Origin: Deltaproteobacteria bacterium | GTDB taxonomy: Bacteria > Desulfobacterota > Dissulfuribacteria > Dissulfuribacterales > UBA5754 | DNA: 38,260 nucleotides | Direction: 5' to 3' | Assembly: GCA_036574075.1 (NCBI GenBank) | Contig: JAINCN010000026.1 | Span: forward strand, 1 to 38,260 | Shown: piece after piece, positions 13,609 to 30,360 of the stretch | Numbering within the stretch: position 1 is the stretch's first letter | Layout: each line of letters starts with the position of its first letter | Notes under the pieces: generated by a model | Databases searched by the model: none | Told to the model about the DNA's origin: nothing | Seen by the model: the letters and a program-made list of their open reading frames with translations, nothing else | Translations under genes and position numbers: made by a program

Positions 13609-15444
13609 ATGCTTGTCGGTACTGACTTGTGGAGACATAAATTTGCGGTGCGATCAGTCCTGTCCTTCGTTTTTGCCCCTCTTTTCCTTCTTTCCGGCCC
13701 CCTGTCCTTAGGGCCTTGTGCAACAGACCCGGGGACGGCAAAAGAGGTCCGTTCCGTCACAAAGATCCTCTCAGGGGCCGTGGAACTCTGTCTCGATTGC
13801 CACAAGGAGCGGCCTGACACGGCCCATGGCCGGGAGGTCCTGGGGTGCTCCGTCTGTCACCGCGGGGATCCCCTTGCTGGGTCGATGAAGGCCGCCCACA
13901 AGGGAGTGGTCAGGAATCCGGGCGAACTCCGGTTGGTGGACCAGACCTGCGGCCAATCAGGATGCCATACCAAGGAGACCAGCTGGGTAAAGAATTCCCT
14001 GATGGCGACGAACCGGGGGATCATCAGCACCCTGCGGTACTACTGGGGCGAGTCGGATGACCATGCCGAGGATATCTCGGTCGAAATGCTCCGCAAGACG
14101 GGTCTCGATTCCCCGGCTGTTGACTACTTCCGAAAACTCTGCGGCTCCTGCCACCTCTGGATGGAAAAGGGCTCCCTTCCCGACTTTCTCGCCAAAAAGG
14201 GCGGGGGATGCACGGCGTGTCACTATCTTCCGGCGGACGAGACCCTTCCCAAGGGCGAACGCCACCCTGCCATTGTCCGCAAGATCCCCATGGAGAACTG
14301 CGTCCGGTGCCACAATCGAAGCGGCAGGATAGGGCTTTCCTATCAGGGGCTCTATGAGAACGAGGGCTACGGGACCCCCCTTGAAAAGGGGAATTTCACC
14401 AGGAGATCCCTTGAGGACGGGCGCTTCGTCTCGGTCCTTCCAGAAGACATCCACCATCGGGCCGGCCTGATATGTACGGATTGCCACACCCAGCGGGAGG
14501 TCATGGGGGATGGGAAGCGGCATGCCCACTTCGAGGAACAACTCGAGGTCACATGCAGGACGTGCCACGGGGATGTCTCCATGCTCAACAGGATCGCGGA
14601 CCAGGCCCTTCGGGAAAAGGCCGGGATGCCCAAGGGGGACGCCCCTGCCGCCTTTCCCAGGCTCGCGGTGGAAAAACGGGACGGTGCCTTTGTCCTCCTC
14701 GGAAAAAACGACGGAAAGCCCCATGCCCTCGATCCCCCGGACCCGATCGCCTGCACCCATCCCACGCACAAGAGGCTTTCCTGCTCTGCGTGTCATGCCA
14801 CATGGGTCCCCCAGTGCTACGGATGCCACGTAAAGGGAGACGCGTCCCGGACCCAGCTCGACAAGGTCTCCCTAAGGGAGACCCCGGGCCGCTGGCAGGA
14901 ATTCAAGGGCTTCATGCGTCATGAGGTCCCACCCCTTGGTGTGCTGAAGGACAGGCACGATGTGGAGGAGGTCGTGGTCCTTGTGCCCGGATGACAGGAC
15001 GTCATCTCGTTCCTGGACGGAACCGGCACATGGAAAAGGGATTTCATTCGGCTCACGGCCTCGTGGATGGACCCGCACACGACCCAGAAAAAGGGGCGGA
15101 CCTGCGTGGAGTGCCACACAGACCCCAGGGCCGTTGGCCTTGGAACAGGATCCCTCTCCCTGATCAATGGGTCATGGACCTTCACCCCGGCCCTCTCGCC
15201 CTTGGGGATACCAGGCATTCATCACCCACTCGATGCCTTTGTCAGTGTGGATGGCACCCCCTTCGTCCATACCTCCCGACCAGGTCTTCGGCCTTTCTTG
15301 GGCCCGGAGATCCGTTCCGTGCTCGAGGTGGGTTTATGTCTCGAGTGCCATCGGGACTTTACCGATCCTGTCATGAAGGCATGGGTCCCCGGACACCCAC
15401 CAGAGCCTTGCGAACAAGCAAAAGAGAAAGGCGTCAATCGGTGA
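13609..15444 (+). CDS. Multihaem c-type cytochrome, probable selenoprotein (in-frame UGA at codon 462)
   Basis: 611 residues if UGA 14992-14994 is decoded. A hydrophobic N-terminal segment (about 16-35, VLSFVFAPLFLLSGPLS) predicts export. Before the UGA there are nine CXXCH haem sites (CLDCH, CSVCH, CGSCH, CTACH, CVRCH, CTDCH, CRTCH, CSACH, CYGCH) and one CX4CH (CGQSGCH). After it, in the same frame and without another stop, come CVECH and CLECH, so the total is twelve. The frame is uninterrupted by indels, the downstream part is clearly protein-like, and a hairpin with SECIS features follows the UGA. The local context is VPG-UGA-Q. Periplasmic electron transfer is the likely role. Alternative: a nonsense mutation giving a 461-aa product. 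A purine-rich tract with GGAGGAGGAG (13583-13592) lies 16 bp before the ATG, a long spacing, so the start is uncertain. Confidence 0.85.
14992..15023 (+). promoter_or_regulatory. UGA plus SECIS-like hairpin
   Basis: Downstream of the in-frame UGA (14992-14994), GTTCC (15009-15013) pairs with GGAAC (15019-15023) around the loop TGGAC. The loop starts 19 nt after the UGA and has a G among its first two bases; both fit the general bacterial SECIS rules (hairpin 16-37 nt from UGA, G early in the apical loop). A competing hairpin CAGGACG/CGTTCCTG directly after the UGA also exists. Confidence 0.5.
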
Positions 15445-28976: not shown

Positions 28977-30182
28977 TTATCCTTCATCGCTAAGCCCATC
29001 TTCCCGAGGAGCTGCCTCTTCTGGCTGTTCGGATTTGGGCAGAAGATGTCGAGGCAAGAAAGCCAGTCCGGCAATCAGCGTCGGAACCACGGCGCTTGCG
29101 ATGACAACAGCGACCAGAAAGGAATACTGCTCCTGCGTCACGATGTTGTGTGAAAAACCGTATAACGCCGAGATCGTTCCAAATGTCAGTCCTGTTGACA
29201 TCAGCAAGGTGTAATACCATCTCTCGTCACGCCTGCTACGGAACAGTCCGATGATTGGATACAGCCCGAATATCTTCGATATCACTTTCCCACCCAACAA
29301 AAACAGGAAGATCATTGGGGCGGAAACCAGGGCAGGCAAGGAAACAAATGTTCCGGCACGAATGAAATAGAACGGCGTGAGGAATCCAACGGTCAAGGTC
29401 CTAAGACGACGAATCCAGAAGGTGTCTCCGTTCGAGAATTCCGCCAGAACCATGCCTACAAGATAGGCCGGAAGTACAGCCTCGCTCCCGGACCATAGCG
29501 CCAAAGCCCCCAAGCCAAAAAGGATGAGGATGACCCATTTGGTCCGAATCGCGGCAGTCCTATAGGCGTAAACGCGGGTCAACCAACGGCTGGTGAAGGG
29601 CAGGATAGCCAGCACAAAGGTTGTCACTCCAATGAAGATTAAGGTTTTATATGTGAATGGCGCAAACAACAATCCCAGGGCGATGACTGTGCCGAGATCG
29701 TTGATGAAGCAGGCCCCGAGAATGCCTTTGCCGAAGTCGGTCTTGTTAAAGCCGGTTTCCAGCATGACCGCGTAAACAACCGCCATCGAGGTGGTTGAGA
29801 GCGCGACGCCGCAAAGCAGGCTGGCCTGGAGATTCCAGTCCAACAGGTAGCGTGCAATAGCCGCGCAGCCCAAGAACGGCGCAAAAAAACCGACGAGGCC
29901 GACGACCGTCACTTCCTTGAGTTTCTTTCGAATTACCTCCGGCTCAAGTTCGGCCCCGGCCAGGAAGGTGAGCAGGACAGCTCCCGAAGCTGCCAAAAAC
30001 TTGAGCCATTCCAGATTGGAGCCGAGCGCGTCCAGCTTCCCCAGGTAGCCCGCGACGGCAGCCGCGATTACGCCCACACAGATTTCAACAAGGGCGATGG
30101 ACACCCGCAGGTGGTAGGCAACAACGGCGGAGATAACAGCCAACCCGAGCCATAGGGCGGCGATGGTAAAGATATGTTCCAT
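28977..30182 (-). CDS. CPA2-type cation/proton antiporter under fluoride riboswitch control
   Basis: 401 aa from ATG 30182 (MEHIFTIAALWLGLAV), chosen because AAAGGAGGA lies about 7 bp upstream; a start at 30221 lacks one. About 12-13 helices. Motifs include LLTFLAGAELEPEVIRKKLKE and FGKGILGACFINDLGTVIAL, the latter containing the ND region where KefB/NapA-type antiporters bind the ion and protons. It exchanges a monovalent cation for H+ across the inner membrane. The leader has a fluoride riboswitch, so it is expected to be made under fluoride exposure. CPA-type antiporters are among the known targets of fluoride riboswitches alongside crcB and CLC-F. Confidence 0.92.
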   Translation of the reverse strand: MEHIFTIAALWLGLAVISAVVAYHLRVSIALVEICVGVIAAAVAGYLGKLDALGSNLEWLKFLAASGAVLLTFLAGAELEPEVIRKKLKEVTVVGLVGFFAPFLGCAAIARYLLDWNLQASLLCGVALSTTSMAVVYAVMLETGFNKTDFGKGILGACFINDLGTVIALGLLFAPFTYKTLIFIGVTTFVLAILPFTSRWLTRVYAYRTAAIRTKWVILILFGLGALALWSGSEAVLPAYLVGMVLAEFSNGDTFWIRRLRTLTVGFLTPFYFIRAGTFVSLPALVSAPMIFLFLLGGKVISKIFGLYPIIGLFRSRRDERWYYTLLMSTGLTFGTISALYGFSHNIVTQEQYSFLVAVVIASAVVPTLIAGLAFLPRHLLPKSEQPEEAAPREDGLSDEG

Positions 30183-30232
30183 GATGGAGTCCTCCTTTCT
30201 TTGAAAAACTATCCTGGCCATGGCGCAGGCAC

Positions 30233-30254: not shown

Positions 30255-30353
30255 GTGGTTCTTGGCACCATTTTGCCCCTACCGCTGCAAAAGCCCGCGC
30301 GGTAGGAGTCATTAGCCCGGCCCGGGCGATTATCTGGGGACCCCATCCCAAGA
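30233..30353 (-). ncRNA. Fluoride riboswitch (crcB motif) with terminator-type switch
   Basis: Read on the minus strand from 30353. The aptamer (30353 to about 30301) has GGGATGGGGTCCCC, then ATAATCGCCCGGGCC and GGGCTAATGACTCCTACC, matching the crcB/fluoride consensus. P1 is GGGGT with ACTCC; P2 is GCCC with GGGC; the pseudoknot is TTGGG with CCCAG. Downstream, CTCCTACCGC can pair with GCGGTAGGGG (10 bp) and would break P1. CTTTTGCAGCGG can pair with CCGCTGCAAAG, the 5' side of the terminator. So without fluoride the terminator forms; with fluoride P1 holds and an antiterminator can form. This is an ON switch by this reading, as in known fluoride riboswitches. Confidence 0.88.
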
Positions 30354-30360
30354 TTTCGAA

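Follow-up and report, generated by a model that had tools for sequence, protein, structure and literature searches.

Whether the UGA codon that interrupts a multihaem cytochrome gene is a genuine stop or a selenocysteine codon is the question raised by this locus in the window, i.e. the whole stretch of 38,260 nucleotides analysed here. The frame on the forward strand (13609–15441, followed by a terminal TGA at 15442–15444) contains this single internal stop at residue 462. The first-pass annotation had described the UGA as the only stop within 612 codons, with the protein continuing for 149 codons and two further CXXCH motifs on its far side, and had reported a hairpin starting 14 nt after the UGA; both descriptions are confirmed in the sequence (Table 1). 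Taken alone, frame and hairpin are weak evidence, because the stability of the hairpin is ordinary and 25 other TGA-joined frames of more than 250 codons occur in the window, documenting that such frames are common by chance. The strong case for selenocysteine comes from the homologues, namely from the conservation of the TGA, from equal constraint on both of its sides and from a covarying stem.

Table 1. Features of the cytochrome locus (positions within the window)
Feature	Position	Strand	Basis
Putative Sec-containing ExtM-like dodecahaem c-type cytochrome, 611 aa	13609..15444	+	Read-through frame, homologues, constraint on both sides of the TGA
Hydrophobic helix at the N-terminus, probably a signal peptide or anchor	13609..13740	+	Sequence; helix 6–32 in the AlphaFold model
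Nine CXXCH haem motifs on the 5' side of the UGA (residues 61, 80, 178, 201, 231, 289, 316, 392, 403)	13789..14829	+	Motif scan, homologues
CX4CH motif CGQSGCH (residues 114–120; C114, C119, H120), probable twelfth haem site	13948..13968	+	Conserved in nearly all relatives
UGA codon, predicted to be read as selenocysteine (Sec462)	14992..14994	+	36 of 38 orthologues have TGA; all other codons are TGC or TGT
SECIS-type hairpin, stem GUUCC/GGAAC, loop UGGAC	15009..15023	+	Covarying stem; absent in Cys homologues
CXXCH haem motif beyond the UGA (residue 499)	15103..15117	+	Motif scan, homologues
Final CXXCH haem motif, likewise beyond the UGA (residue 577)	15337..15351	+	Motif scan, homologues

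Decoding of the in-frame UGA

A search of 60 relatives retrieved about 40 orthologues, distributed over about 11 families within the window's order, and one internal TGA was flagged in nearly all of them. Residue 462 is covered by 38 orthologue loci of the order, with TGA in 36 and TGT in the remaining two (genomes G010 and G015). The scan was widened to one genome per species with the addition of Thermodesulfobacteria, Desulfobulbales and cable bacteria. Seven thermodesulfobacterial loci (L126, L127, L130, L141, L143, L144, L159) exhibit a TGA at the same codon within an open frame, the first of them belonging to the cultured organism Thermosulfurimonas dismutans, and the loci of Desulfobulbales and cable bacteria harbor TGC or TGT. 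Across 85 loci, a set that counts five paralogues and overlaps the 38 orthologues, the codon is TGA in 37, TGC in 31 and TGT in 17 cases without any other codon, corresponding to 48 cysteine loci versus 37 with TGA. Cysteine also occupies this column in true ExtM proteins, i.e. those above the curated cut-off, and in other ExtM-like proteins; the homologues have it in the PGCQ context named by the first-pass annotation. A second paralogue in several genomes of the order (L057–L061) is about 35% identical, harbors 12 CXXCH motifs and has cysteine throughout. The copy of Candidatus Electronema KV (L147:7878-9797) has cysteine at residue 462 and a TGA elsewhere in the gene, which is probably an error or the mark of a broken copy.

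As expected of a bacterial selenoprotein gene, coding is conserved on either side of the in-frame TGA: in a same-genus pair, dN/dS amounts to 0.042/0.219 before and 0.043/0.235 after the codon. Several orthologues terminate with TGA like the window gene, indicating that this codon is not generally reassigned.

Single-sequence folding was rejected as evidence for a SECIS element. The isolated window hairpin has a folding energy of -5.6 kcal/mol, a value that does not stand out from shuffled sequences (z -1.1), a 45-nt piece containing it favours a different fold, and the mean MFE z-scores of TGA and Cys sequences (-0.84 versus -0.56) are barely separated. Because folding was uninformative, we relied on covariation and register-specific pairing in a gap-free alignment of 35 distinct TGA sequences from the window's order. 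The five inner stem pairs are formed in 95.4% of the cells, and 14 cells are changed on both sides, compared with a mean of 4.2 in shuffles, none of 500 reaching 14; every slid register scores below the true one for pairing and covariation alike. The window and its sister differ from the commonest sequence by a change from C-G to G-C at one pair and from U-A to C-G at another. In 43 Cys homologues the stem is not formed, the innermost pair being found in none of them. The Thermodesulfobacteria have a hairpin further downstream, several nucleotides more from the UGA (e.g. CTTTCCC-GGGA-GGGAAAG), which suggests either SECIS drift or a separate refinement. The SECIS assignment thus stands with respect to a hairpin conserved by compensatory changes among the TGA sequences, but an Rfam search of the UGA site gave no match to a SECIS model.

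The genome of the window (1.99 Mb, 99.9% complete) encodes tRNA-Sec (73.5 bits), SelB (363 bits) and SelA (607 bits), all scoring over the cut-off. The first-pass annotation had named selD as well, for which the search of this assembly was negative; on inspection, the two matches resemble ThiL and PurM, and the SelD of a same-genus genome used as query retrieved nothing better. Since all 11 relatives tested, among them the same-genus genome (locus L085), have a SelD that exceeds the cut-off, each with a copy that contains an in-frame TGA, we take its absence as an assembly gap, which is unproven. The tRNA-Sec is present in 19 of 20 relatives and in most genomes of Thermodesulfobacteria; in those of L127 and L144, all matches are weak (near 50 bits) and may represent tRNA-Ser.

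Two other readings of the codon have to be weighed. If the UGA were a true stop, the product would be a short cytochrome without its last two haems, and the downstream frame would be a remnant or translated separately. A mechanical ORF caller does break the gene at this point, the downstream part has an ATG of its own at 15067, and low selenium may also yield a short product; but the equal constraint on both sides, the exchange of TGA and Cys confined to one codon, the covarying stem and the single continuous gene of the Cys homologues make a true stop highly improbable. Practically negligible is the probability that the TGA reflects a sequencing or assembly error or is translated as a different amino acid, e.g. 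tryptophan, since the identical codon with its read-through frame is kept in dozens of independent assemblies, which rules out the assembly error, homologues have no residue other than Cys at the TGA codon, and the same gene ends in a terminal TGA stop. This reading is refuted by the TGA in 36 of 38 orthologues and by the restriction of the codon to TGA or Cys in the 85 loci. The interpretation of the UGA as a selenocysteine codon, as the first-pass annotation had proposed, is accordingly supported by homologue codons, hairpin covariation, dN/dS and the presence of selA, selB and tRNA-Sec. As judged from these sequences, the UGA at 14992 would almost certainly be decoded as selenocysteine by SelB and tRNA-Sec, steered by the hairpin 14 nt downstream.

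Family assignment and electron partners

The twelve haems claimed for the protein are reached by eleven CXXCH motifs and one CX4CH motif, i.e. only if the latter is counted. Its N-terminal hydrophobic helix suggests periplasmic export. The search against NCBIfam resulted in a match to ExtM (NF040943) of 267 bits, which is well below the curated cut-off of 800, and in weaker matches to ExtN and HmcA; the cytochrome is therefore a member of the ExtM superfamily and not of the ExtM equivalog. It shares with the 12-haem ExtM of the Geobacter cluster extHIJKLMNOPQS (PMC5877670) homology over nearly the full length, twelve haem motifs and the PGC(U)Q site, the cysteine of which lies in the same column as Sec462. 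However, true ExtM has cysteine, and the window protein is only about 30% identical and has no ext cluster beside it; the neighbours examined were glycosyltransferase, PPIase and ABC transporter genes as well as unmatched ORFs. For the selenocysteine coding of the UGA and the assignment to the ExtM superfamily taken jointly, we estimate a probability of roughly 0.93 on the basis of the sequence comparisons. Elsewhere in the window, a fluoride riboswitch (30296–30359, reverse strand) is located upstream of a Na/H-exchanger-family gene (28977–30221, reverse strand), which is followed by an MFS gene.

The view of the first-pass annotation that selenocysteine near haems is unusual has to be tempered by the precedent of ExtKL (NF040886), a five-haem cytochrome recognised in 2007 to contain a TGA in frame (PMC1914089). 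ExtKL and the octahaem tetrathionate reductase family (TIGR04315) are both listed selenoproteins (PMC13188914, Table 1), and neither model is matched by the window protein in NCBIfam. ExtKL resembles it as a Sec-containing multihaem c-type cytochrome of the same phylum, but belongs to a different family with five haems, the Sec context PDGU and no haem motif after the Sec. The genome of the window also contains such an ExtKL-type gene (contig C25:96639-97871, L197; NF040886, 556.6 bits) with an in-frame TGA in the context PDG-U-PTPNR. The octahaem family likewise combines multiple haems and Sec with a connection to the sulfur cycle, but has eight haems. An ExtM homologue is also known from cable bacteria (PMC11976967), and the Electronema and Electrothrix loci fall into the same family as the window protein; unlike the latter, they have Cys in place of Sec and form a sister clade in the tree.

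In Thermodesulfobacteria, the cytochrome gene follows the genes for a Rieske protein and a short cytochrome b. A relative of this cytochrome b is present as a single copy in 11 of 12 genomes of the window's order tested, and in most of these it is adjoined by a frame containing a Rieske motif. The pair is also found in the window's genome, where it is located on a different contig from the cytochrome. No conserved gene neighbourhood of the cytochrome was found in the order, except in G004, where the cytochrome b gene immediately precedes that of the Sec cytochrome. The Geobacter cluster comprises a Rieske protein (ExtO) and a cytochrome b (ExtP) in addition to ExtM (PMC5877670). Because its gene follows those of the Rieske protein and cytochrome b in Thermodesulfobacteria and in one genome of the window's order, the cytochrome probably serves an alternative quinol-oxidising complex as its electron acceptor in the periplasm. 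Somewhat more likely than not, electrons would pass from menaquinol via the Rieske/short cytochrome b pair to the haem chain. The sequences themselves show the Sec coding, the family membership and the gene pairing, whereas the cellular location, the electron flow among the partners and the role of Sec are inferred.

Position and role of residue 462

Residue 462 is the sole non-haem cysteine position that is conserved superfamily-wide. An AlphaFold model based on order-only sequences was poor (pLDDT 63) and discarded; the model calculated with 80 diverse sequences (pLDDT 88, pTM 0.83) places the residue in a long strand (453–469), within a region rich in beta structure that lies between the haem motifs at 403 and 499. 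A fold search of the PDB with both models gave no match, and a sequence search of solved structures retrieved only a short stretch of NrfA-type cytochromes with an E-value near 0.001.

We tentatively propose that Sec462 may act at the terminus of the haem chain as a redox-active nucleophile, the substrate probably being a sulfur or selenium oxyanion or polysulfide. This role, the likeliest of those considered, would fit the lineages of the organisms and the selenite/tellurite phenotype of the Geobacter ext cluster, a phenotype that has been demonstrated for extI, not for extM. A reversible selenosulfide of Sec462 with C382 or C601, which would provide a redox switch or a buffer for two electrons next to the haems, appears unlikely: C382 is conserved in 88 of 88 and C601 in 86 of 88 clade members, but both are missing in the paralogues and in nearly all ExtM proteins, where Cys462 persists, which downgrades the selenosulfide as a general mechanism. 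Being conserved together, the two cysteines may simply pair with each other in a structural disulfide. Still more doubtful is a function of Sec462, or Cys462 in the relatives, as an axial haem ligand that tunes the potential instead of binding a substrate. TsdA, SoxXA and DsrJ provide examples of haems with a Cys ligand, residue 462 is conserved throughout the superfamily, and twelve haems are confronted with only seven further histidines conserved in the clade (73, 97, 219, 282, 307, 387, 490), so that some haems lack a conserved distal His. However, the conserved Met132 and Met299 could be the ligands instead, penta-coordinate haems are possible, and the residue is located inside a predicted beta strand of a haem-free model. 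That Sec462 is a natural selenolate ligand of haem iron, with the Cys of ExtM and its relatives as thiolate counterpart, is improbable; if true, one family would offer both the selenium and the sulfur form of the same haem site.

Evolution and significance of the Sec form

The phylogenetic tree comprises 98 rows and was calculated with a quick method, with SH-aLRT as the only support measure; it contains a few long branches. All Sec rows fall within one clade of 43 (SH-aLRT 97), the sister group of which is a Cys clade of Desulfobulbales and others; ExtM and the paralogues branch outside these two clades. A minimum of three changes is required on the tree, namely, one gain of Sec from Cys and two reversions to Cys. 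The reversions are located in two species (L033 and L034). The genome of the former (G010) retains tRNA-Sec and a SelD with TGA, and its locus has kept the 5' arm and a UGGAU loop of the hairpin and lost the 3' arm.

An inventory of 119 selenoprotein families and subfamilies from 2026 does not contain ExtM-like proteins in its table (PMC13188914), and the window protein matched no Sec-specific model in NCBIfam. Our literature search, to which subscription papers, preprints, supplements and RefSeq records were external, retrieved no report of an ExtM-like selenoprotein or a dodecahaem Sec cytochrome. Selenocysteine-containing multihaem cytochromes as such are already known, but the ExtM-like Sec cytochrome appears to be a new selenoprotein family, priority not being proven.

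With it, the selenoproteome gains a broadly distributed family in sulfur-cycling lineages, the cultured T. dismutans included. Annotation without a Sec-aware model is expected to truncate the protein at the UGA, thereby dropping two of its twelve haems. The exclusive superfamily-wide conservation of one non-haem Cys/Sec points to the functional site of ExtM, which is a conserved protein of the Geobacteraceae and also occurs in cable bacteria. The natural Sec/Cys pairs, together with the two reversions, provide a direct test of the effect of selenium beside a haem chain.
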